Source: a virus. From it: a stretch of DNA of 64,000 bases. The notes under the pieces are model-generated. The model saw nothing but the letters and a program-made list of their open reading frames with translations, searched no databases and had not been told where the DNA came from. How positions within the stretch are numbered: position 1 is the first letter of the stretch; the number at the start of each line of letters is the position of its first letter. Location: IMG/VR virus record IMGVR_UViG_3300033273_000374, positions 126,001 to 190,000 of that record; one strand, given 5' to 3'. The translations under genes were made by a program, and so were the position numbers. Shown in pieces: positions 21,727 through 46,619 of this stretch.

Positions 21727-22502
21727 TATGCAGTCTTTTCTAGTTGTGCTACAACCGCTGCTTTTAATTTAGCATCTGCATTGATAGTTTTAAGAAGTTT
21801 TGCAACTTTAGGGCTTGCTTGTGCAGGTGCTTGTGCTTGTGCTGCTGGTTGCGCACCGGCTGCTGCAGGCTTGTCTATGCTTTGTATTGCTTTCTTGTCA
21901 ACTGCAAATATAGCACTACCAATTTTTAATTGTATTTGCTCATCGCCTTGTGCATCTTTTGTGTTGAGTGTAGCAGCATCTTTGTTTACCACTGCTTGTT
22001 TCTTTTCGCCTTTGGCATTTATGTATGTAACAGTGTCACCCACTTTAGGATCAATTGCAGGACCACTAGTGGCTACACCTGCTGCTGTTGGTTCATTGGG
22101 TTTGGGTTGTGCGCCTGCGGCAGCCGCTGCGGCTGTTCCAGCGCCTTTGTCTCCTCTGTTTACAGTTTTATAAATTGTTTCTTGGTATTTGGCTTTGATT
22201 GCACCTGTGATATAAGCATCCAGTGCTTTAGAATCATCTGGATTGCCTGTGAATGGTGGTTCATTATTTTTTGGATCAGCAAAATCTACCACTTTGTTTG
22301 TTACGTCTGTGATCAGTGCTGGTGCTTCTTTAGCATACACATCTGCGCCACGAGCCTTTAGTTGTGCCATTGCTTTTGTAACATCAGCTTTGACACCTTT
22401 GAGCACTGCAGGAACCTGCTTTAATTTTTGGTTATACTCACGGTCAAGTTTCCGAGTCGCTACATCCACATCTGCTTCTAAAATTATTTGTGAAATTTTC
22501 AT
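21726..22502 (-). CDS. Structural-block protein with SH3/KOW-like C-terminal module
   Basis: The 258-residue protein has a helical N-terminal half (VDVATRKLDREYNQKLKQVP), an Ala/Gly/Pro-rich linker (GAGTAAAAAAGAQPKPNEP), a small beta module (VGDTVTYINAKGEKKQAVV; IQLKIGSAIFAVDKKAI), a second Ala/Gln linker and a helical end. The GDTV(T)YxNxKGEKK pattern resembles SH3/KOW-like barrels. It is coupled to both neighbours. The role is unknown. Confidence 0.5.
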   Translation of the reverse strand: MKISQIILEADVDVATRKLDREYNQKLKQVPAVLKGVKADVTKAMAQLKARGADVYAKEAPALITDVTNKVVDFADPKNNEPPFTGNPDDSKALDAYITGAIKAKYQETIYKTVNRGDKGAGTAAAAAAGAQPKPNEPTAAGVATSGPAIDPKVGDTVTYINAKGEKKQAVVNKDAATLNTKDAQGDEQIQLKIGSAIFAVDKKAIQSIDKPAAAGAQPAAQAQAPAQASPKVAKLLKTINADAKLKAAVVAQLEKTA

Positions 22503-22747
22503 TTTGACTCACCTAATTTTTGTGCGCCACGCTTAAACTTTTTGGTATCACGTCCTCTGATGCTGTTGATAAGTCTGCGTTCTAAGTCGCCAGCAACTGC
22601 TTCGTCGTAGTGTTCATAAAACTCGTCAATTAAATTAATAGCACTTTCAATGATTTGACTACCACGTGATTCAAATACATGCTGTCTATCACGCTCGTGT
22701 ATCATGTTATTAAGTTCATTTAAAATACTGCGAGTTTGTTTTTTCAT
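22499..22747 (-). CDS. Small helical protein
   Basis: The 82-residue protein is highly helical and charged (SILNELNNMIHERDRQHVFE; DLERRLINSIRGRDTKKFKRG). It opens the minus-strand structural block, with a GATAAATA octamer 22 bases upstream and AGGTA before its ATG. No family recognised. Confidence 0.5.
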   Translation of the reverse strand: MKKQTRSILNELNNMIHERDRQHVFESRGSQIIESAINLIDEFYEHYDEAVAGDLERRLINSIRGRDTKKFKRGAQKLGESK

Positions 22748-22768
22748 TACCTAGCACCCGATTTAATT

Positions 22769-22776
22769 TATTTATC
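22769..22776 (-). promoter_or_regulatory. Late-promoter-like octamer
   Basis: GATAAATA on the minus strand upstream of the gene at 22747. It lies in the divergent gap between the structural block and the lipase gene. Confidence 0.45.
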
Positions 22777-22807
22777 GTTAAATACAGTATACTTGGAGGA
22801 GTAGGAG

Positions 22808-23539
22808 ATGTCAATACAAGATAACCCTGGCGGCCATTTCGCTGAATTGGCCCGTATAGCATACATGACAGAAAAAGAAAGTAGACCTATTGCTAAAAAG
22901 ATGGGATATAAGAAAACAAAACTCATCGATCAAAACGGTGCAGAGTGTCTTTTTTTAGAAAATGACGACACACTGGTGTTAGCATTCCGTGGAACAGAGC
23001 CCAAAGAGTTCTCAGATATTAAAGCAGATCTCAAAGCATGGAAGCGTAAAAGTAAAACCTGGGGCATGGTCCACGCAGGTTTTTATGAATATCTCAATAA
23101 AATTTGGGAAAGTGTGTTAAGACACATCAACTACGGCGACAGAGAAACAAAAAAATTGTATATTTGTGGACACAGTCTTGGTGGTGCAATGGCCACACTT
23201 GCTGCAAGTCGTTTGCAAGATCGTGTGATAGGATGTTACACCTATGGATCGCCACGTGTGGGTGGTCGTGTTTGGCGTAGCAAATGCACATTTGAACATC
23301 ACAGATACGTCAACAACAATGACATTGTGCCACGTGTTCCATTTTGGATTATGGGTTTTAGACACTATGGCGAATTACACTATATCAATCATTATGGTAA
23401 TATTCGTAAACTCACAGCCTGGCAGAAGTGTAAAGATCAATGGCGTGGACGATTGAGAGCATGGCAAAAGCGTGAGTTCTTTGATGGTGCTCGAGATCAC
23501 AGCATGGTTCAATACAGTAAAAAAATTAACAAGAGTTGA
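22808..23539 (+). CDS. Class 3 lipase-family hydrolase
   Basis: The 243-residue protein has LVLAFRGTEPKEFSDIKADL (oxyanion loop region) and the nucleophile elbow ICGHSLGGAMATLAASRL (GHSLGG), then CYTYGSPRVGG and NNNDIVPRVPF supplying the Asp, with HY.NHYG or RDHSMVQY as candidate catalytic His. This is the alpha/beta-hydrolase order of class 3 lipases. No signal peptide is seen, so it acts in the cytoplasm or is freed at lysis. GGAGGAGTAGGAG precedes the ATG, an unusually strong ribosome-binding region. A role in membrane-lipid breakdown is inferred. Confidence 0.85.
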   Translation: MSIQDNPGGHFAELARIAYMTEKESRPIAKKMGYKKTKLIDQNGAECLFLENDDTLVLAFRGTEPKEFSDIKADLKAWKRKSKTWGMVHAGFYEYLNKIWESVLRHINYGDRETKKLYICGHSLGGAMATLAASRLQDRVIGCYTYGSPRVGGRVWRSKCTFEHHRYVNNNDIVPRVPFWIMGFRHYGELHYINHYGNIRKLTAWQKCKDQWRGRLRAWQKREFFDGARDHSMVQYSKKINKS

Positions 23540-23547
23540 CCAAAAAT

Positions 23548-23639
23548 CTTGTTTGCCTAGTTTTGCTGTACTAAATACACTGTCATTTCAATGACACCAG
23601 GCACAAATAAAACATACTATAGGCATTTAGGCAAACAAG
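23548..23639 (+). promoter_or_regulatory. Long inverted repeat in leader of DnaE-like gene
   Basis: CTTGTTTGCCTA (23548-23559) and TAGGCAAACAAG (23628-23639) are perfect 12-base inverted arms flanking a 68-base loop that holds a second hairpin, TGTCAT-ttca-ATGACA at 23581-23596. The 3' arm ends directly at AGGCAGC-ATG, so pairing would partly mask the ribosome-binding site. A possible sigma70 promoter (ATGACA, 18 bases, TACTAT) overlaps it. Confidence 0.55.
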
Positions 23640-23646
23640 AGGCAGC

Positions 23647-25347
23647 ATGAAGTTACCAAACGATGCAGAGGCACAACTAAATCGATTACTAGGCGCATTC
23701 ATAAGGCAAATACCAGAGGCACCCGAATATCGAGAGAGACTGGTCGAAGAACTTGAGATCATACTCAAATTACGCTTCACCGATTACTTCCTAACAATTT
23801 GCGATGTACTGACGCTAACCGCGGACATTCCCCACATGACCAGAGGTTCAGCAGGGTCAAGTCTTGTGTGTTACCTATTAGGTATCACTGATGTGGATCC
23901 CATAAGATGGCAAATACCGGTTGCACGTTTCCTAAATCCTTTGAGGGATGACTTGCCAGATGTGGACATAGACTTTCCGCATTGGCAACAGGATACTGTG
24001 ATGCAAAGAGTATTTGCGAAATGGCCTGGTCGCAGTGCAAGAATCAGTAACTATGTGCTATACAAGGAGCGCAGTGCCCGTAGAGAAGCGGCACGCCGTC
24101 TTGGCGCATCTGGCAAACTCCCTCGCAATTTTAAGTATGAAGATTATGACATCGATAAGGAAGAGGCAATGAGGCTCGAAAAGAAACTACTAGGCAAAAA
24201 AAGATCAATATCAAAACACTGTGGTGGCATTGTGATACTAAAACACAAGGTGCCAAAAAGTCTAATCAACCAAGACAATCAGTTGATGCTGGACAAAAGA
24301 GAAGTAGAAGATTTAGAACATCTAAAAATAGACATACTGGCCAACAGAGGGTTGAGCCAACTGTTAGAAATAGACAGTGACACACCACTGGAAGCATATC
24401 CAGAACAAGATTTTGAAACATCACAACTGTTGTGTAGAGGTGATGTGCTAGGCGTAACGCAGGCTGAGTCCCCGGCCATGCGACGCCTGTTCCAAGCAAT
24501 ACAACCACAATCAAAAGCAGATTGTGTGTTTGCCACAGCACTGATTCGTCCTGTGGCCACAACAGGAAGACAAAAGGCAGCATTTTTTCAAGACTGGACA
24601 GAAAGCGCACTAGAAGATACCATAGTGTATGAAGATGATGCCATACACAAAATAGCAAACCTAATTGGTTGCGACATGTATGAAGCAGACATGTATCGTC
24701 GTGCATTTGCAAAACGTGACGAAGAACGTGTGATGGAATTTATGGGCAAGATGGGAGAATGTGAAGACAAAGAACAGATTATCCAAGAACTGTATGGCTT
24801 GGGTAACTTTGGGTTGTGTAGAGCACATGCTGTGAATCTTGGAAGGCTGATTTGGGCATTAGCATATCAAAAAGCACACAACCCAAAGGATTTTTGGCGT
24901 GCTGCACTCAAACACTGTGTGGGATCATACAGACGTTGGGTACACAAAACGGAAGCAAAGAATGCGGGGTGGGATCTACGTGAACTGGGTTATGAGAATG
25001 GCATCACCAGCACACCACAAGCACAGTATCGCAAACATGGTTATTGGACACAACCTGACTTTATGCCTGGTATGTTTATACAAGAAACTTGGGGCGATAG
25101 AGTAAACTTTGCAGGACTCATAGCCAATGGCAGAACATTCCGTGGTGAAAGTGGACGCTATGTTACATTTGTTACTGCAGGCATTGCCAATGGCGAGTAT
25201 GTGGACATCACAGTCAAACGTCCGTTCTCACACAAGGATCATGATGTTATTGTGGGTTCAGGTAAGATACGCATAAGCAACGGTGCACGTTACATTGAGT
25301 GTTATGATGCACAAGGTCATAGATTAGAAAAATATTTGTCAAATTGA
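23647..25347 (+). CDS. DnaE/PolC-like DNA polymerase core lacking PHP domain
   Basis: The 566-residue protein has the palm and fingers of bacterial Pol III alpha: TRGSAGSSLVCYLLGITDVDP (residues 65-85), PDVDIDF with Asp105 and Asp107 matching the catalytic pair, and HLKIDILANRG with Asp229 as the third Asp. Fingers motifs follow: GVTQAESPAMRRLF, ALIRPVATTGRQ, YEADMYRRAFAKRD, LGNFGLCRAHAVNLGRLIWA. The usual N-terminal PHP domain is absent and the tail is short, so it is about half normal size. It could be a repair or accessory polymerase, or a regulator. Plus-strand, with a structured leader. Confidence 0.75.
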   Translation: MKLPNDAEAQLNRLLGAFIRQIPEAPEYRERLVEELEIILKLRFTDYFLTICDVLTLTADIPHMTRGSAGSSLVCYLLGITDVDPIRWQIPVARFLNPLRDDLPDVDIDFPHWQQDTVMQRVFAKWPGRSARISNYVLYKERSARREAARRLGASGKLPRNFKYEDYDIDKEEAMRLEKKLLGKKRSISKHCGGIVILKHKVPKSLINQDNQLMLDKREVEDLEHLKIDILANRGLSQLLEIDSDTPLEAYPEQDFETSQLLCRGDVLGVTQAESPAMRRLFQAIQPQSKADCVFATALIRPVATTGRQKAAFFQDWTESALEDTIVYEDDAIHKIANLIGCDMYEADMYRRAFAKRDEERVMEFMGKMGECEDKEQIIQELYGLGNFGLCRAHAVNLGRLIWALAYQKAHNPKDFWRAALKHCVGSYRRWVHKTEAKNAGWDLRELGYENGITSTPQAQYRKHGYWTQPDFMPGMFIQETWGDRVNFAGLIANGRTFRGESGRYVTFVTAGIANGEYVDITVKRPFSHKDHDVIVGSGKIRISNGARYIECYDAQGHRLEKYLSN

Positions 25348-26303
25348 TCAAGTCCAAATCTAAACTGATCCATAAAACTGTCTAAATTTTCTCTAACCAG
25401 TGATAAATTTTTTTGGTGTCTATCCATATAATCCAGTTTCTTCACATTGTGATTTTCTAACAATTTACGATTAAGTTCTAGTGCATTTAAAATTCTTAGA
25501 CCCGGATGTGCTTCATATTGATAGCTGTGATCAATTACATCATCAAATACATCAAAACCTATACGTGTAAGCTGTTCTGGCATAGCATATCCACCGCAAA
25601 ATATAGGAAAACAACAACCGTGCAATGTCATTAAATATTTTTCTGTAATTATGCAACCTTTTTCCCAAAAGACAGGTTCAGTAATAATACTAAAAGTACT
25701 GGAACAAAACTTTTCACTAAAAATAGCATTCCACAATTGGGAATGAGGCTTTCCGTTGTCATACTCTGGTGGATTGGTAATTCCTTCAAAAGGTATAAAT
25801 TTTTTCTCTAAAAAACTATCAAATTTATATGGTGTTAAACGAGTGAATTCATCAATCATTATAAAGTGTTCGTTTTCTATTTCCCAACTTTGAGTATACT
25901 CAAAATCTATATGTCTATTTTGACTGAACCATGCGCTAACAAGAAGTCTATTTTCTCTACGCTTATTCATCATAACGAAACAATTTTTTTCGTCTGAATA
26001 TTCTGCTGCAGAGACATTTTTTAAGAAATCTTTACAGTTTTTTAATAAAATATACGGAATATATGTGTAAGGATATGGGAAATCTTTCCAATACAGGTAT
26101 TCCCACCACACATGCTCTACATTTACATTTTGTTTTTTGATAATTGACTCTATGCTATTGTAAGACTTGTCTATGTAAATACCTTCGTCGTTGTATTCAA
26201 TTTTAGCATCCTCCCACGACACCGGTGGTTGATGATCTATAACAAATACCCAGCCATCATTGCCTGGCTTGATTATACCATCTGCTGTATCAATTAAAAG
26301 CAT
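25317..26303 (-). CDS. Glycosyltransferase-like protein, paralogue family A
   Basis: The 328-residue protein shares the C-terminal signature of 13249-14337: GCIITEKYLMTLHGCCFPIF, then LTRIGFDVFDDVIDHSYQYE. The AGRPF element is replaced by HGCCFPIFCGG, so this copy is divergent. The N-terminal half contains FVMMNKRRENRLLVSAWF, resembling the core of the third copy (VCMNRHDKPHRRIAYSKL). It overlaps the end of the DnaE-like gene convergently by 31 bases. Likely a transferase of GT10-like fold; the acceptor is unknown. Confidence 0.6.
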   Translation of the reverse strand: MLLIDTADGIIKPGNDGWVFVIDHQPPVSWEDAKIEYNDEGIYIDKSYNSIESIIKKQNVNVEHVWWEYLYWKDFPYPYTYIPYILLKNCKDFLKNVSAAEYSDEKNCFVMMNKRRENRLLVSAWFSQNRHIDFEYTQSWEIENEHFIMIDEFTRLTPYKFDSFLEKKFIPFEGITNPPEYDNGKPHSQLWNAIFSEKFCSSTFSIITEPVFWEKGCIITEKYLMTLHGCCFPIFCGGYAMPEQLTRIGFDVFDDVIDHSYQYEAHPGLRILNALELNRKLLENHNVKKLDYMDRHQKNLSLVRENLDSFMDQFRFGLDQFDKYFSNL

Positions 26304-26308
26304 CTAAA

Positions 26309-27709
26309 CTAGCCACTTTGCTTCAATCCAGCCAACATATCTTTTAGTTTACTGCTCTGTACACTGGCTGTAATCTTGCCTACATCCTCATCACCTGCTT
26401 CAGCAACACCAGCATTGTCTTTTGACTTGATTTGTTCATAGATACTGCTTGATTGTTTCTTGAACTGTTGATATTCTTCATCCTCGCCCAAGTCTCTGAT
26501 GCGCAAACTTTCAACATCAAACTCTAAATCAATCTTTTGTCCAACACCACTTGAACTACGTGTTTTCATAAGTTGCAATTGATAGCGTCCACGTTCACGC
26601 ATTGCTCTACTTGTAAAGATACCAAACACATTGTCTGCAGTGTTGATCTTACTCAAGCCACCTGCAATCATGCTGTGATCAAATTCAATTTCTTCAACTG
26701 CACTACGATTCAACTGACTTGCTGTAACAAACACACAGTTTAATTCTTTGGCTAAGTTGCGCAGTTCTTCACTCACATACTTGTCTTTAACAAACAGGTC
26801 ATTGGGCGATACCTTGGCACTCACTGGCATGATCAAATCCAAATAGTCAATCAACAAAAAATCAATCTTCCAACCTAGTTTGATCTGCAGTTCTTTAAGG
26901 TATGCCCGTATGTCATTTACATTGCTCTGTGCTGGCATGTATTTGATCTGTAAACGGCCTGCTTTTTTGCCTACCATACGAACTTTCATTTCAACAGTGT
27001 CAAGATCTTTAAACACCTCCTTGGTTGACACATTGGTCATCATGCTGTCAATGCGCATTGCACTCAAGCCTTCTGAAAGTTCCAGTGTGAGATACACACC
27101 ATTTAACCCGCTAGTAGTCCAATTGACTGCTAGATTCTGCATGAACAAACTTTTGCCTGACCCTGATCCACCTGCAAATATATTGAGTTCACCCTTGTTC
27201 ATGCCGCCAAACAGTTTCCTATCCACTGCTGGCCACCCTGTTGAAATCTGTCCATTGTTGTCTTTGAGTGCCATAAGTCTGGCTCTTGGATCAGCAAAGT
27301 AGTCTGTGCCCATGTCTTTTGTGAGACTGATTTGTACAGCATCTTTGATGATCTTTTCAACAGGGTCGTATTCGCCTTTCTCAAGCAAGTCTGCACTTTT
27401 GAGAATGGCACGTTCTAGTTCTTGCCGCTTGGTGAATCCTTCAAACTCTGCAAGAAACCAGTCGTTGTGACTTTCAGTTACGTCTGGCACTGGCTTTAGT
27501 TCTACACCTGTCACAGCCTGCACCTGCTCTCTTGTGGGCAGTGTGCCATGATCCTTGCTGTGTGTGTCTATGAACTGTGCAGTGTCTCGCAAACTACGAT
27601 CAAAGTTGTCTACATTGAAAATGTTTTGCACCCGCACAAAGTTTTGTGCATCGTTAAGCATCATTTCTAAAAATAATTTTTGTAAGTCTGGTGTATATTC
27701 TTTTGTCAT
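26309..27709 (-). CDS. Replicative DNA helicase (DnaB/gp41-like)
   Basis: From MTKEYTPDLQKLF (ATG overlapping the previous stop as ATGA) the product is 466 residues. It has a helical N-terminal domain and a RecA-type C-terminal domain with Walker A GGSGSGKSLFMQNLA, Walker B IDFLLIDYLDLI and a ASQLNRSAVEEIEFDHSMIA motif typical of DnaB/gp41 helicases. It should unwind the fork with the gp61-like primase encoded about 2 kb upstream in the same run. Length matches T4 gp41. Confidence 0.9.
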   Translation of the reverse strand: MTKEYTPDLQKLFLEMMLNDAQNFVRVQNIFNVDNFDRSLRDTAQFIDTHSKDHGTLPTREQVQAVTGVELKPVPDVTESHNDWFLAEFEGFTKRQELERAILKSADLLEKGEYDPVEKIIKDAVQISLTKDMGTDYFADPRARLMALKDNNGQISTGWPAVDRKLFGGMNKGELNIFAGGSGSGKSLFMQNLAVNWTTSGLNGVYLTLELSEGLSAMRIDSMMTNVSTKEVFKDLDTVEMKVRMVGKKAGRLQIKYMPAQSNVNDIRAYLKELQIKLGWKIDFLLIDYLDLIMPVSAKVSPNDLFVKDKYVSEELRNLAKELNCVFVTASQLNRSAVEEIEFDHSMIAGGLSKINTADNVFGIFTSRAMRERGRYQLQLMKTRSSSGVGQKIDLEFDVESLRIRDLGEDEEYQQFKKQSSSIYEQIKSKDNAGVAEAGDEDVGKITASVQSSKLKDMLAGLKQSG

Positions 27710-28686
27710 TTCCAACCTAATTTATCAATACGATCTAAAATTTTTTCACTGTACATTTGATGTGTGAGTGGGCCCGGGTGCATATTGTCTGTGCCATAGT
27801 CTAAAAAGTAACTATCGTGCTCAATTCCACATTGTTCATCTATCAATAGAAAATTTGATTGTGTACATAGCACTGAACTAATTTCTACGTCTACATGTAT
27901 GCCTACTAGCAATAGTTCAACACCTAGTTTTTTGCAAAAGTTTTCAACTTGTCGTATAGCCCTCATTCCAACATGATGCCAATGACGATCTGATATCATT
28001 TTTTGTGTGATTATTCCTTTGAAATTTTTTGCTTCTGGTCGATCAAAAAAATGTATTCCTATGTGTTGTACACTATTACCTGTTATGTACCACGGAAGTC
28101 TATTGGTGTATGTTAATCCCCAAATAACTTTATCACCTTTTTGTAGATCTGCTCTCAGCAATTGATCACTTTGCCATTGTAAACTAGTTCTAGACTGTGC
28201 TAGATTTACAGTAGGAATATTTAGTTTGTTGCTAATAGATTTCCAATAAACTTCATCAAAATCTATAGCCTCTCCTGCTGTTGTGCTGCATCCTATAATC
28301 CATAGATTACTATCTTGTGACAATCTTGGTTTTATGGTGGGTGCATCTAGTGCTGGAGTTTTATCTATCTCAAATATGGTTTGCTGCAATGTTGATATTA
28401 TTTTACAGTAAACATAAGAAGTTTGTGCCATGCTGAATCTATCATCAACAGTTGCACCATCAGACCATACATCATCATTGGGAGAACAATAAATGATTTG
28501 AGTTGCTTTAAACAATAGATCAATTAATCCTTTAACACCAACATCAGCAATGCTGGTATATATAACTCCAATGTGATTGCGATCTATATTACTATATTCC
28601 ACTAGGTAAGCATTAGGGTCAATCTCGTGCGCACGGTCTGACAGATAATTTGTACTATCGCCAACTATCACTGTTAAATTATTCAT
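27706..28686 (-). CDS. SGNH-hydrolase-like protein (copy 1)
   Basis: From ATG 28686 (TAATG overlap with the radical SAM gene) the product is 326 residues. Residues about 130-145 read NLWIIGCSTTAGEAIDFDEV, a block I-like G-C-S start, then TVNLAQSRTSLQWQSDQLL (block II), KVIWGLTYTNRLPW (block III-like) and a C-terminal DNMHPGPLTHQM with the HPG..H pattern. It differs from the other five copies by an extra 130-residue N-terminal domain. SGNH proteins cut or move acyl groups; the substrate is unknown. Confidence 0.6.
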   Translation of the reverse strand: MNNLTVIVGDSTNYLSDRAHEIDPNAYLVEYSNIDRNHIGVIYTSIADVGVKGLIDLLFKATQIIYCSPNDDVWSDGATVDDRFSMAQTSYVYCKIISTLQQTIFEIDKTPALDAPTIKPRLSQDSNLWIIGCSTTAGEAIDFDEVYWKSISNKLNIPTVNLAQSRTSLQWQSDQLLRADLQKGDKVIWGLTYTNRLPWYITGNSVQHIGIHFFDRPEAKNFKGIITQKMISDRHWHHVGMRAIRQVENFCKKLGVELLLVGIHVDVEISSVLCTQSNFLLIDEQCGIEHDSYFLDYGTDNMHPGPLTHQMYSEKILDRIDKLGWK

Positions 28687-42879: not shown

Positions 42880-43522
42880 GAATTGCCTCTGCTATCCGTT
42901 GATGTCCTAGTTCTAACGGATGACCGCCTGGTCCTTTGGGTGCATCTCCCATTATTTCTACCATTGAAGTATCGGGCCATCCTACAAACGCTGCGATATC
43001 TATCATAGAAATAAGGTCATCTGCTTTGTGATCCAATGTATGTATTAGATTCAAATTGTCAAATGTATTTACAAATCTATACTCAACATTGTTTTGTTTT
43101 AAAAAACTTTGCAACAATACAACCTGTCTCACCCAGTTGCGAAATTCATACACAACTTCACTGTGCAAGGTTAGCCAACGTGCTATGCCTGGCCTATCAA
43201 CATCTTTTGCTTGATCCGGGTGCAACCAATAAGCAAGTTCTGAACATCCAGGCCATATGGTAAATGCACCATGCATGTCATTGAACTCTTGTCTGCCGCA
43301 ACTGGTCCAACCTACCACAACTAGATCTGGATCATGTTCAATAACAGCATTAATTGTGCGCTTTACAAAAAAATGATTGCTAGTGCCTCTGCGGCCTTCA
43401 TTGATGACTTTGTAGCCCAATTGCTTGCCTAGCACATGCGGCCATGCATTATTACGATCTTCTAGTTCTTCACCATACGTGAAACTATCGCCTACTGTGT
43501 ATAACTTTTTCATAATATCCAT
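42854..43522 (-). CDS. SGNH-hydrolase-like protein (copy 6)
   Basis: The 222-residue protein contains KLYTVGDSFTYGEELEDRNN (GDSFTYG block I), VINEGRRGTSNHFFVKRTI (block II), LVVVGWTSCGRQEFND (WTS..R) and GGHPLELGHQRIAEAI (HPLELGH). All four SGNH blocks are present. The start may be the ATG at 43522 or the one three codons later. The hairpin array lies directly upstream, and a TACAAT box with TAGACT 17 bases before it could be its promoter. Confidence 0.75.
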   Translation of the reverse strand: MDIMKKLYTVGDSFTYGEELEDRNNAWPHVLGKQLGYKVINEGRRGTSNHFFVKRTINAVIEHDPDLVVVGWTSCGRQEFNDMHGAFTIWPGCSELAYWLHPDQAKDVDRPGIARWLTLHSEVVYEFRNWVRQVVLLQSFLKQNNVEYRFVNTFDNLNLIHTLDHKADDLISMIDIAAFVGWPDTSMVEIMGDAPKGPGGHPLELGHQRIAEAIHAHINTGR

Positions 43523-43535
43523 TGTAGCATAAAAT

Positions 43536-43728
43536 GAGTGGCTAGTCTATTTCTAAACTAGCCACTCTGTGTACAGTCGTGATTGGAGGAGAGAGGAGAG
43601 AGGAGCTCACGACTGCAAACCGTTAAATTTTTGTGTTAGCCATAAGTAGCTTGGGTGAGTAGGGGGAAATTAATCCCCCTACCCGTTTCATCACAGTCCT
43701 CGTGGAAGAAGAGAGAGGGGAGGACTGT
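43536..43728. ncRNA. Array of four perfect hairpins; candidate regulatory RNA
   Basis: Four uninterrupted stems lie in this 219-base gene-free gap: 43536-43567 (11 bp, GAGTGGCTAGT/ACTAGCCACTC), 43574-43615 (9 bp, CAGTCGTGA/TCACGACTG, 24-base loop), 43659-43682 (9 bp, GTAGGGGGA/TCCCCCTAC) and 43693-43728 (9 bp, ACAGTCCTC/GAGGACTGT, 18-base loop). Hairpins 2 and 4 share CAGTC...GACTG stems and have all-purine plus-strand loops rich in GGA and GAGA. In minus-sense RNA, the likely sense as 3' region of the AAA ATPase gene, those loops are polypyrimidine. None is followed by a good T tract, so these are not simple terminators. Confidence 0.6.
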
Positions 43729-43741
43729 AAATGAACTCTTG

Positions 43742-44656
43742 TTATGTCATCTTCATACAGGTTGTTTCTGCAAGTTTTTTCCAGTTGCTAGATATCCTCT
43801 TAAGGTCTGCAAGTTTGAGTGCCATACGCAAACTCATCTCACGAAACCTCTCAGGCTGGTCTTGCATAAAATTAATTATCTCTTGTTCTTCTTCCTTGCT
43901 AAAATTATATCCTTCAAACAAGTCTCCTTTGCGAGCAATTTGCTTGATGCGTAACAGTTTATCACGCATCGTGTCCAATGTAAGGTCTACATAGTGCGCA
44001 CGACTCATTAGTGCTTCTAAGTGATCCTGTAACCTTTTGCTTTTTACATTCTCAAACTTGATGTTGGTGACAAAGCAAGCACTGCCCTTGAATACAAATG
44101 AATCAGGGATTCCTTCATTGCGTAATTTTACACTGTCCGCATTCCAGAAGATCTTACGCTTCTTTCCGCTGTCCAGTGCTGCTTTAAGTATGTTCAATGA
44201 CAAGTCGTCCATTAGGACACTATCACAGTCATCAAACACCACCACGTTACCTTTACCACTGTATTCGTAAAGTTTGGCATACAATCCAAGTGCAGTCATT
44301 GCACCTTTGACAACTTCAAACGGACGCTTTTGATTTGCTATATCACCAAAAATGTTTTGCCGTTCTAACGTGGTCATTACACCATAACTTTTACCAACGC
44401 CCGGTGGCCCGGTAACAATCATTGCACGGATGTCACCTGCCTGCAAACTAGCAGTCATGGTATTCAAGATCTCGAAACGCTCTTCAATTTCTTGCATCCG
44501 TGTTTCTTCATCTACTAAATCATTTGCATTGGCATTTGGTAAGCCAATAATTTTACACTCAATACCTTTTTTATACAAACGTGTCTGAGCAGCCTTTACA
44601 GCGGCTTGTGTTTTGTAGCTCTTCTCAACACCTTTGTTATCTACCAGTTTAAACAT
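43742..44656 (-). CDS. AAA+ ATPase
   Basis: From ATG 44656, with TTGGAG seven bases upstream of the codon region, the product is 304 residues. Walker A is VTGPPGVGKSYG (about 83-91) and Walker B is VVVFDDCDSVLMDD. It continues with a sensor region (ACFVTNIKFENVKSKRLQDH) and a helical lid. It resembles small AAA proteins common in marine myophages; the target is unknown. The first of the AGGTTGACA-type promoters lies upstream. Confidence 0.8.
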   Translation of the reverse strand: MFKLVDNKGVEKSYKTQAAVKAAQTRLYKKGIECKIIGLPNANANDLVDEETRMQEIEERFEILNTMTASLQAGDIRAMIVTGPPGVGKSYGVMTTLERQNIFGDIANQKRPFEVVKGAMTALGLYAKLYEYSGKGNVVVFDDCDSVLMDDLSLNILKAALDSGKKRKIFWNADSVKLRNEGIPDSFVFKGSACFVTNIKFENVKSKRLQDHLEALMSRAHYVDLTLDTMRDKLLRIKQIARKGDLFEGYNFSKEEEQEIINFMQDQPERFREMSLRMALKLADLKRISSNWKKLAETTCMKMT

Positions 44657-44686
44657 CTCTCGCTCCAACTGTTTAAATTTTAATTT

Positions 44687-44714
44687 ATAATAGCATCTTT
44701 TACAGATGTGTCAA
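44687..44714 (-). promoter_or_regulatory. AGGTTGACA-type promoter 1 (AAA ATPase)
   Basis: AGG-TTGACA, 16 bases ending in TGC, TATTAT on the minus strand. Member of a five-copy set with the same 16-base spacer and the same GC-TATTRT core. Confidence 0.75.
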
Positions 44715-44720
44715 CCTAAT

Positions 44721-45077
44721 TTATGCACGACCTGTAAGATAACGTGGTCCTGTCCATGCAACAGTGTAACCACCGTCTAAGATATTACCACGTGGAGCGT
44801 TTCTTGCTGGCGCATTAAAACCAGCTGGTTTAAGGATATCACCTTTATTAAACTTTTTGTCATTGTCTGTGGCAACAACAAAACCCCAAACACTACCACC
44901 ATTGCGGTTGGTAATTTTAATGTATTTGGAACCTTTGGTGTATCCAAGCTCTGAATCAAAATCTGCAACTCTTTGAACATCACGATCGCTAAGTTTGTTT
45001 GTTTTGGAACACTTTTTGATCCAGTTAATGTAATCAGCTACGATATCGTTTAACAGTTGATCAATTTGCTGTTGCAT
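44721..45077 (-). CDS. Hypothetical early protein (118 aa)
   Basis: The start at ATG 45077 is set by the ribosome-binding site GGAGAGAGGAA and by the promoter at 45110-45137; the longer frame to 45278 would run through that promoter. The product starts MQQQIDQLLNDIVADYINWI and has a beta-rich second half (GSKYIKITNRNGGSVWGFVV) ending GYTVAWTGPRYLTGRA. No family recognised. The GA-rich ribosome-binding site is complementary to loops of the nearby hairpin array. Confidence 0.6.
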   Translation of the reverse strand: MQQQIDQLLNDIVADYINWIKKCSKTNKLSDRDVQRVADFDSELGYTKGSKYIKITNRNGGSVWGFVVATDNDKKFNKGDILKPAGFNAPARNAPRGNILDGGYTVAWTGPRYLTGRA

Positions 45078-45109
45078 TTCCTCTCTCCATGCATTTATCT
45101 TATACATAC

Positions 45110-45137
45110 ATAATAGCAAATTGTGCCAATTAGTCAA
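45110..45137 (-). promoter_or_regulatory. AGGTTGACA-type promoter 2
   Basis: AGG-TTGACT, 16 bases ending in TTTGC, TATTAT on the minus strand, upstream of the gene at 45077. Confidence 0.75.
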
Positions 45138-45288
45138 CCTCTTTTTTTGGTTTTTTCTTATTTTTTCCCCAGGCACTGGTATAAACTTCTTCGCTACGTG
45201 CACCTGGTTCGCACACAGTGATTTTACCACCTTTGGCAAGATACTCTTTAACAGCAGCTTCGTAATCTTCGCGTTCATTTTTATCCAT
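45130..45288 (-). CDS. Small acidic/basic hypothetical protein (52 aa)
   Basis: From ATG 45288 with AGGAGAAAAACC upstream the product starts MDKNEREDYEAAVKEYLAKG, then KITVCEPGARSEEVYTSAWG and a Lys-rich tail (KNKKKPKKEVD). A longer GTG-started frame reaches 45438 but overlaps the 43-aa gene and is not preferred. Its 3' end overlaps promoter 2. Confidence 0.6.
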   Translation of the reverse strand: MDKNEREDYEAAVKEYLAKGGKITVCEPGARSEEVYTSAWGKNKKKPKKEVD

Positions 45289-45299
45289 TGGTTTTTCTC

Positions 45300-45431
45300 C
45301 TAGTGTTTTCCGGTACGAACAGGCAATCCCTGATTCATATAGTCGTTGCGCACCGACAAAATCTGTGCTGGTGTCATGTATTCCCACACCAGCAGTTTGC
45401 CGTCTGGCATTGCTATTTCTAACCAATACAT
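45300..45431 (-). CDS. Small hypothetical protein (43 aa)
   Basis: A separate frame starts at ATG 45431 with AAGGAGTG upstream and ends at TAG 45300-45302. It reads MYWLEIAMPDGKLLVWEYMT, then PAQILSVRNDYMNQGLPVRT. It is the first gene behind promoter 3 and is followed 11 bases later by the 52-aa gene. The GKLLVWEYMTPAQI pattern looks like genuine coding sequence. Function unknown. Confidence 0.6.
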   Translation of the reverse strand: MYWLEIAMPDGKLLVWEYMTPAQILSVRNDYMNQGLPVRTGKH

Positions 45432-45461
45432 TACACACTCCTTGTTTGTTTAACTATACAT

Positions 45462-45489
45462 ACAATAGCATAAATTGCTAGACTGTCAA
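45462..45489 (-). promoter_or_regulatory. AGGTTGACA-type promoter 3
   Basis: TTGACA, 16 bases, TATTGT then ATGTATAG on the minus strand, before the 43-aa and 52-aa genes. The AGG upstream of the -35 is not kept in this copy. Confidence 0.75.
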
Positions 45490-45492
45490 TCT

Positions 45493-45834
45493 TTATGAAC
45501 CAGCAATCATTCTAAAACTGCCATCTTCTTGTAAACGGAAACCTTCAACAAACACATGCCAGTCACCGCAATGACGTTTGGCTGATTGGAAAACTGATTC
45601 TGCTGCTCTCCAAAAACCTTCTACAGTGTTTTCATGAGTGAAGTGGCTGAACTCACATTCTTGCATGTTCTCGTCAAATGCACGATATGTAATGCGATAA
45701 CATTCACGCTCTTCGTCAACAACCTTATCGCTGAGGTTAACAATCTCTTCGTCAAACATGCTCCAGCGAGTCTCAAATCCTAACTCGTTGCGCTTGTTGT
45801 CTAAGTCTTCGATAACTGCGTATAAGTTGTTCAT
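45493..45834 (-). CDS. Hypothetical early protein (113 aa)
   Basis: The product starts MNNLYAVIEDLDNKRNELGF and is mixed alpha/beta (ERECYRITYRAFDENMQECE; GDWHVFVEGFRLQEDGSFRM). The ribosome-binding site is CGGAGAGAGAA, very like that of the gene at 45077. No family recognised. It sits between promoters 3 and 4. Confidence 0.6.
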   Translation of the reverse strand: MNNLYAVIEDLDNKRNELGFETRWSMFDEEIVNLSDKVVDEERECYRITYRAFDENMQECEFSHFTHENTVEGFWRAAESVFQSAKRHCGDWHVFVEGFRLQEDGSFRMIAGS

Positions 45835-45861
45835 TTCTCTCTCCGTTTTTTAACTATACAC

Positions 45862-45889
45862 ATATTAGCATGTATGTGTATACTGTCAA
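45862..45889 (-). promoter_or_regulatory. AGGTTGACA-type promoter 4
   Basis: AGG-TTGACA, 16 bases, TAATAT on the minus strand, followed by ACGGAGAGAG and the ATG at 45834. Confidence 0.75.
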
Positions 45890-46023
45890 CCTAATAAATG
45901 CATTTTTTTGAAACTTTTTTTTCTGCTACTATATCATGTATCAAAAACATTGTTTAGATTGAGAAAACCTACAATATTGTGTAGATAACTTTTTTTTATT
46001 TTTTTTTGCCTTTTTGTAGGATA

Positions 46024-46215
46024 TTATACCAGTAAAAATGCTAGAATACCCGCAACAACCACATATGGCATCAACTTCCAGCCCAATCTAAAACCAGCTA
46101 TTATTACTGCAACAACAACACCAATGGTAAAGCCCATTGCTAATAGGTGCAGTATCAAATCCATTTTGTCATACACTAGCTCAAATGTGCCTTGATCACT
46201 TACTTGGAATTCCAT
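46024..46215 (-). CDS. Small two-helix membrane protein
   Basis: The C-terminal part has two transmembrane helices (LLAMGFTIGVVVAVIIAGF and LMPYVVVAGILAFLLV). The upstream part (MEFQVSDQGTFELVYDKMDL) overlaps the SWIM-finger gene by 20 bases; a start at MDLILHLL (46164) would avoid the overlap. A 190-base gene-poor stretch follows, holding promoter 4 and several long T/A runs but no clear terminator. Confidence 0.5.
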   Translation of the reverse strand: MEFQVSDQGTFELVYDKMDLILHLLAMGFTIGVVVAVIIAGFRLGWKLMPYVVVAGILAFLLV

Positions 46216-46396
46216 CTTCAAACCTTCCTTCTACACTCTTGATGTGTTTGCATTTGCGACGTGCAACACAGTTACAATCAAACCCGCTATCTAGCATGGT
46301 AACAGTGTACACATCGCCCTTGCTGCCTGTTACAGGCCATTGCACACCCACAAATGGGTGTCCTTTTGTATTTACTATCTCACTAGGGTGAGCCAT
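46196..46396 (-). CDS. Small SWIM-type zinc-finger protein (66 aa)
   Basis: The protein starts MAHPSEIVNTKGHPFVGVQW and has FDCNCVARRKCKHIKSVEGR at residues 39-58, giving C-x-C-(x5)-C-x-H, the SWIM zinc-finger pattern used for nucleic-acid or protein binding. Almost the whole protein is strand, strand, finger. It overlaps the next gene by one base. A DNA-binding role is inferred. Confidence 0.65.
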   Translation of the reverse strand: MAHPSEIVNTKGHPFVGVQWPVTGSKGDVYTVTMLDSGFDCNCVARRKCKHIKSVEGRFEDGIPSK

Positions 46397-46554
46397 TAAG
46401 CAGTAACCTTGCCAACAACAACACCAGCACCGTTAATTTTACCGAGAAAGTTAATGTGTGAATTGAACTGCTGAGCCAACACATTCATGTCTGCAGTTTT
46501 TCTAATTTTGCGCATTGCATCTAATGCGTTTTGCAATTCTACTGAATAAGTCAT
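46396..46554 (-). CDS. Small hypothetical protein (52 aa)
   Basis: From ATG 46554 the product starts MTYSVELQNALDAMRKIRKT and ends FLGKINGAGVVVGKVTA. AGAGAGAATAA lies before the ATG, another GA-rich ribosome-binding site. The frame is open to 46611 but that runs through promoter 5. No family recognised. Confidence 0.55.
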   Translation of the reverse strand: MTYSVELQNALDAMRKIRKTADMNVLAQQFNSHINFLGKINGAGVVVGKVTA

Positions 46555-46591
46555 TGCTTTATTCTCTCTACTGTTTTTTTCCAACATATAT

Positions 46592-46619
46592 ACAATAGCA
46601 CAACAACACATGTTGTCAA
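46592..46619 (-). promoter_or_regulatory. AGGTTGACA-type promoter 5
   Basis: AGG-TTGACA, 16 bases ending in GTGC, TATTGT then ATATATG on the minus strand, before the gene at 46554. It lies back to back with the late octamer of the HNH gene. Confidence 0.75.

Follow-up and report, generated by a model that had tools for sequence, protein, structure and literature searches.

The Locus and Its Predicted Transcript

The stretch of DNA analysed here (the window, 64,000 nucleotides) comprises bases 126001–190000 of a 202,913-bp virus record. It encodes an NrdC.10-like AAA ATPase of 304 aa (43742..44656, minus strand; phrog_1250, E 5e-78), the T4-group homologues of which are annotated nrdC.10, and a neighboring gene specifies a UvsW-like helicase whose closest counterparts belong to Sinorhizobium phage Phosso and Agrobacterium phage Atu_ph07. 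A promoter of the form TTGACA-16-TATTAT with TG (44687..44714, minus strand; 11 of 12 consensus matches) is predicted ahead of the ATPase gene, and the putative transcription start deduced from its position would leave a leader of about 24 nt, next to the ribosome-binding site (RBS) UUGGAGCGAGAG (44657..44668, minus strand). In the region 44687–46619 (minus strand), a series of small genes is found in which every gene is preceded by a separate extended -10 promoter (TTGACA-16-TG-TATTAT type) and some have a TATAGTTAAA-like transcript start in common; the arrangement resembles an early-gene array.

The gene on the other side, SGNH, is also encoded by the minus strand (ATG at 43513) and, used as a probe, retrieved one relative only. 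Its predicted promoter (TAGACT-17-TACAAT with TG, 43521..43549, minus strand) has the -35 element inside the 3' arm of the hairpin H1 described below and the -10 element TACAAT about 7 nt ahead of the ATG. The SGNH mRNA may be leaderless, and a comparable spacing occurs in the relatives L005 and L009.

The gap between the two genes is occupied by four hairpins, given here on the minus strand, whose uninterrupted stems of 11, 9, 9, and 9 bp agree with a preliminary description of this DNA. H1 (43536..43567; stem 43536–43546/43557–43567) has 11 bp, or 14 if it is extended with a G.U pair; no other convincing terminator-like site exists on this strand between the ATPase and SGNH genes. H2 (43574..43615; stem 43574–43582/43607–43615, 9 bp) and H4 (43693..43728; stem 43693–43701/43720–43728, 9 bp) have loops that contain CUCUCUCCUCCAA (43583–43595) and CUCUCUCUUCUUCC (43704–43717), respectively. 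H3 (43659..43682; stem 43659–43667/43674–43682, 9 bp) is structural, with a G/C stem and a UUAAUU loop that is not anti-RBS; a similar hairpin occurs in two relatives (L002, L004). The mirror repeat and the purine loops that had been noted on the plus strand were likewise found. In the 5' to 3' direction of the minus strand, the ATPase stop codon is followed by H4 (CU loop), H3, H2 (CU loop), H1, and finally the SGNH gene. Across the 203-kb genome, a long, near-pure CU loop on a perfect stem of 9–11 bp was found only in H2 and H4, the remaining entries of the scan having mixed loops or shorter stems. The Rfam 15 covariance models gave no match in the window and tRNAs only in eight relatives.

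As minus-sense RNA the array has a folding energy of -93.5 kcal/mol, while shuffled sequences average -56.7 (z -7.9, with no shuffle equalling it); the plus-sense fold is weak (z -2.9). Since the ATPase gene has a promoter of its own, H1 is terminator-like and the better-folding strand is the coding strand, the array is most simply read as the 3'UTR of the ATPase mRNA. The free-standing antisense RNA that had been envisaged is thus retained as regards its anti-RBS loops but not as regards its independence.

Conservation of the Stems and Loops

Among 47 viral contigs with close ATPase relatives, inspected immediately 3' of the stop codon, most of the closer relatives have a hairpin with a CU-rich loop followed by a terminator-like hairpin. 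An alignment of 13 H2+H1 regions yields a consensus of 24 pairs, of which 18 show changes on both sides, so that conservation in related phages, a check which the preliminary description had called for, is borne out. Cells of the alignment pair in 94.4% of cases, compared with 75.4% in column shuffles and 29–46% with a slid partner. None of 500 shuffles attained the covariation score of 0.587 (shuffles, 0.241); the structure was derived from the same sequences and the slide control thus favors it, the two-sided changes being independent of that. Several positions contain U-G (one of them in 11 of the 13 sequences), which pairs in the minus-sense RNA only. In L002 and L004 the H2 and H4 seeds are identical to those of the window although the stems differ. 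A further arrangement is found in a 275-kb virus record (G057, the same as L293), in which the ATPase leader contains GAGGGC and three tandem hairpins follow the ATPase stop codon, with differing stems and near-identical CGCCCUCA-type loops complementary to GAGGGC RBSs, a site that also serves other genes of this virus. Three tRNA genes lie upstream at this locus.

Complementarity of the 3'UTR to the ATPase Leader

When leaders are set beside 3'UTRs, the loop proves not to be a fixed anti-Shine-Dalgarno (anti-SD) sequence; it often complements the ATPase leader of the very phage that carries it. In the window, the own leader (UUGGAG-C-GAGAG) and the H2 loop can form a duplex of 11 bp that is interrupted by a single bulged C (-16.9 kcal/mol). 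Perfect own matches in relatives extend over 12 nt (UAACGGAGUAUC/GAUACUCCGUUA in L121; UGUUGAAAGGCU in L116), 11 nt (UGCUGUGGGAG with CUCCCACAGCA in L041; ACAGGAGUUCA/UGAACUCCUGU in L113; AGGAGUAACUA with UAGUUACUCCU in L020), 10 nt (GGAGGAGCAA with UUGCUCCUCC in L005/6/7/15; UAGGAGCUAA in L069), or 8 nt (GUGGGAGG with CCUCCCAC in L034). A profile search enlarged the ATPase set to about 145 relatives; it supplied the matches of UAACGGAGUAUC, UGUUGAAAGGCU, ACAGGAGUUCA, and UAGGAGCUAA listed above and added own matches of 10 nt each for AGGAGCAUUC and GAGCUAGACA.

The relationship was evaluated by permutation with one representative per cluster (86, 58, and 39 representatives at protein-identity cuts of 95, 85, and 75%). 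The longest Watson-Crick own match has a mean of 7.3–7.4 nt, compared with 5.6–5.9 nt when leaders and 3'UTRs are swapped among phages (7.4 vs. 5.6–5.8 nt at the 85 and 75% cuts), and the own-match mean was reached by none of 20,000 permutations (z 12.4, 10.7, and 9.3 at the three cuts); duplex energies concur (z -10.7, -9.5, and -8.9). Because swapping preserves the composition of both leaders and UTRs, generic SD/anti-SD resemblance cannot account for the signal. Some leaders depend on a start codon that was picked partly by SD score, a choice blind to the 3'UTR. For 204 other genes of the same loci no signal was obtained (own 4.99, swapped 4.86), and own matches of at least 8 nt occur in 2% of these genes compared with 41% for the ATPase. 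A sliding segment confines the signal to roughly positions -30 to 0 relative to the start of the ATPase gene (7.1 vs. 5.7), with none at -80 to -46 or within the ATPase coding sequence, and the leader of the next gene shows no pairing signal with the ATPase 3'UTR (5.5 vs. 5.3, P 0.11). The paired stretch is the SD itself and frequently reaches to 1–3 nt from the start codon. On the 3' side, the matched stretch tends to be located in loops: across 40 loci it is more often unpaired (0.64) than the remaining 3'UTR sequence (0.43; Wilcoxon p 4e-5).

When all leaders of a contig are compared, the own leader gives the longest match in L113 (499 leaders), L021 (225), L005 (61), L015 (70), and L121 (36), and ranks second of 231 in L077, but it is not the best match in L008, L024, and G057. 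Not every phage shows the relationship: the own match is 6 nt or less in about a third of the 58 representatives, and the four T4-group/Vibrio homologues (L058–L061) have no such element. In the whole genome of the window phage, two other genes with a long own match were found and neither resembles a second instance; one match begins at the stop codon and involves an AT-rich leader, and the other lies within the coding sequence of a neighboring fiber gene. On the L008 contig (G004), a gene for a protein of 1781 aa (22411–27756, plus strand) has a leader, GUAUCUGGAGGA, that is perfectly complementary over 12 nt to loop plus stem arm of the ATPase 3'UTR.

These data bear on two explanations that do not involve pairing between RNA segments. 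The window loops are almost pure CU runs, one of them a mirror repeat, and could be conceived as a loading site for Rho or another protein or, on the plus strand, as triplex DNA or a CsrA sponge. This is very unlikely, as relatives have mixed sequences in place of the CU run (UUGCUCCUU, UGAACUCCUGU, UUCGCUCCU, CGCCCUCA), in which nothing but the match to the respective own leader is retained. The CsrA sponge or ribosome decoy which had been offered as the plus-strand option is disfavored by the weak plus-sense fold, by U-G wobbles that fit the minus strand only and by the replacement of the purine run in relatives; a CsrA sponge shows GGA in the loops of the transcribed strand, and the better-folding, coding-sense RNA shows CU loops instead. 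Mobile or invertible units, too, can consist of a gene between inverted repeats, and short DNA repeats serving as recombination sites or element ends would produce complementarity at both gene ends with no RNA interaction. We regard this as hardly credible: the 5' copy is located on the SD region, the 3' side may carry two or three copies (H2 and H4 in the window, three in G057), each in a loop, the stems covary with U-G pairs where tested, and the annotated flanking genes include no transposase or invertase.

Neighboring and Distant Genes as Possible Targets

The proposal that the CU-rich loops of the minus-sense RNA are complementary to RBSs holds in principle; the neighboring genes then named are the weaker targets, and the ATPase gene itself, whose RBS is the target with evolutionary support, had been missed. 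The RBS GGAGAGAGGA of the gene at 45077 (45078..45089, minus strand) matches the H2 loop over 10 bp and GGAGAGAG of the gene at 45834 (45835..45845, minus strand) over 8 bp. Both matches exist but are not significant alone, since a CU-rich loop is expected to find a 10-nt leader match: after dinucleotide shuffling, 79% of H2 loops still match some gene leader over 10 nt. The targets at 45077, 45834, and 46554 are accordingly no better than shuffle expectation, or weak. In the comparison with shuffled sequence that had been named as a check, matches of 10 nt therefore fail, and those of 13 and 14 nt exceed expectation; the conserved own-leader complementarity is significant in the permutations described above.

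The two longer matches concern distant genes. The H2 loop is a perfect 13-nt complement of the RBS UUGGAGGAGAGAG of an SNase-like nuclease (153 aa, genome 124745–125206), and the H4 loop matches, without mismatch over 14 nt, the RBS GGAAGAAGAGAGAG belonging to the gene for a 674-aa protein (genome 108890–110914). Dinucleotide-shuffled loops reach 13 nt in 1.8% of cases (P ~0.018) and 14 nt in 0.5% (P ~0.005), and these are the sole loop matches longer than 10 nt in the genome. The 674-aa protein, which matched no family, reads as outer-membrane-like with a signal-peptide-like start. The leader of this gene is predicted to form a 7-bp hairpin that has GGAAGAAGAGAGAG in its loop, so that a loop-loop contact with H4 would be possible.

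An alternative worth weighing, though the less probable one, is accordingly a 3'UTR-derived sRNA hub acting mainly in trans, with loops directed at other genes of the phage (here the nuclease via H2 and the 674-aa protein via H4) and the own gene as just one of several targets. Apart from the length of these two matches and the exposed position of the second target, the unchanged seeds of L002 and L004 speak for it, as do two other leaders with matches of 10–11 nt in the L077 phage. Autoregulation itself is weakened in the window by the bulged C within the own match and by the rank of the ATPase leader, 10th of 284 for the H2/H4 loops, two other genes matching better. The SNase leaders of seven other phages carrying both genes have no long match to their own ATPase 3'UTR, and the nuclease and 674-aa protein are for this reason suggested as lineage-specific rather than conserved targets. 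Chance matches also gather in GA-rich leaders, where 29–38% of the sites of shuffled loops fall. Shuffled loops find just as many long complementary sites at RBSs, where GA-rich sequence collects anyway; only match length and co-variation across phages, not site number, were counted as evidence.

Further complementary leaders were observed. Three small consecutive genes at genome 105844–106722 (L054:5844–6722, plus strand), two of which have membrane-segment starts, possess GA-rich leaders complementary to H2/H4, with 10-nt matches in the first and third. The two L077 leaders (contig G043, 137068–139817) belong to genes near the SNase gene, match the ATPase 3'UTR loop over 10 and 11 nt, and represent possible trans targets.

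Comparison with Known Systems

The closest counterpart is the icaR mRNA of Staphylococcus aureus, in which a C-rich motif of the 3'UTR (UCCCCUG) pairs with the SD region of the same gene, in cis or in trans, repressing translation and creating an RNase III site (PMC3868564), an interaction that its authors termed a singular example (PMC3868564). The ATPase 3'UTR resembles it in having a motif complementary to the SD of its own mRNA, across relatives according to the permutations and over 11 bp plus a bulge in the window, and compensatory changes of motif and SD that would keep the pairing are seen as natural co-variation between clades. In contrast to icaR, which is one bacterial gene, the ATPase is a phage gene with dedicated hairpin loops in up to three copies, and motif and SD co-vary across many clades.

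OppZ and CarZ of Vibrio cholerae are 3'UTR-derived sRNAs that base-pair with their own transcript and inhibit translation (PMC7398697); they are released by RNase E and have targets inside operons, OppZ being Hfq-dependent (PMC7398697). As in these sRNAs, the element lies between the stop codon of the target gene and a terminator (here stop codon, loop hairpin, terminator-like hairpin), but the ATPase gene appears monocistronic. Tandem hairpins with constant anti-SD loops and diverging stems are also characteristic of the NfeR1/alpha-r14 and cuckoo sRNAs of alphaproteobacteria, host sRNAs that are free-standing, have an invariant CCUCCUCCC loop, and act on many targets in trans (PMC10746234, PMC3927594). 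The window array shares the tandem anti-SD hairpins but is not a member of this group, because it lies in a 3'UTR and lacks the invariant CCUCCUCCC; the loops are CUCCUCUCUCC-like or clade-specific, following the leader of the gene that carries them. By description, the C-rich loops of the RNAIII type in S. aureus are likewise anti-SD loops aimed at RBSs, RNAIII being a stand-alone trans-acting RNA and the present element a 3'UTR. In the open-licence papers searched, an incomplete set, no phage precedent for a gene-specific anti-RBS RNA was found. By analogy, the array would function like the icaR 5'-3' UTR switch and the 3'UTR-derived autoregulatory sRNAs.

Proposed Mechanism and Implications

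The strand sense, the covarying stems and a complementarity between own leader and own 3'UTR that co-varies over many phage clades emerge directly from the computations. On this basis, the ATPase 3'UTR probably pairs through its anti-RBS loops with the leader of its own gene, in cis or as a 3'UTR-derived sRNA, and represses translation. The ATPase gene would be transcribed from its own early-type promoter into an mRNA of about 1.1 kb, starting with the leader of about 24 nt and ending near H1; the loops of its 3'UTR (H2 and, more weakly, H4) are complementary to the SD region. Pairing of leader and loop within one mRNA, or of a 3'UTR fragment with other copies, would block 30S binding and limit ATPase synthesis, and the build-up of full-length transcript would damp further synthesis. 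That this RNA is made, ends at H1 and pairs in the cell we infer from its sequence features, which are compatible with either a fold-back in cis or a 3' fragment acting in trans.

Repression is deduced from geometry and from icaR, OppZ, and CarZ: the pairing covers the SD, often to a few bases before the start codon, and should therefore block initiation. Sequence data give pairing potential and not its sign, and a real 5'-3' pairing might instead stabilize or circularize the mRNA or aid ribosome recycling with no repression. We consider this improbable, since pairing over the SD, often to within 1–3 nt of the start codon, should keep the 30S subunit off the mRNA and the same geometry in icaR represses translation and recruits RNase III (PMC3868564).

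Beyond autoregulation, it may tentatively be proposed, at a likelihood well short of even, that the array is a multi-address regulator with several loops, each fitting the RBS of a different phage gene: H2 would address the own ATPase and the nuclease, and H4, by loop-loop contact, the outer-membrane-like protein. If so, transcription of one early gene would shut down or time several others.

Few cases of bacterial 5'-3' UTR pairing as a translational switch are available so far. In this one gene family of large phages, nature has provided double mutants of motif and RBS by the tens, so that the mechanism is directly testable and its logic (why the ATPase, whether in cis or in trans, why one loop or three) can be read from evolution. 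If the repression proposed here is real, a gene-specific anti-RBS RNA would join the ways in which phages time their genes.
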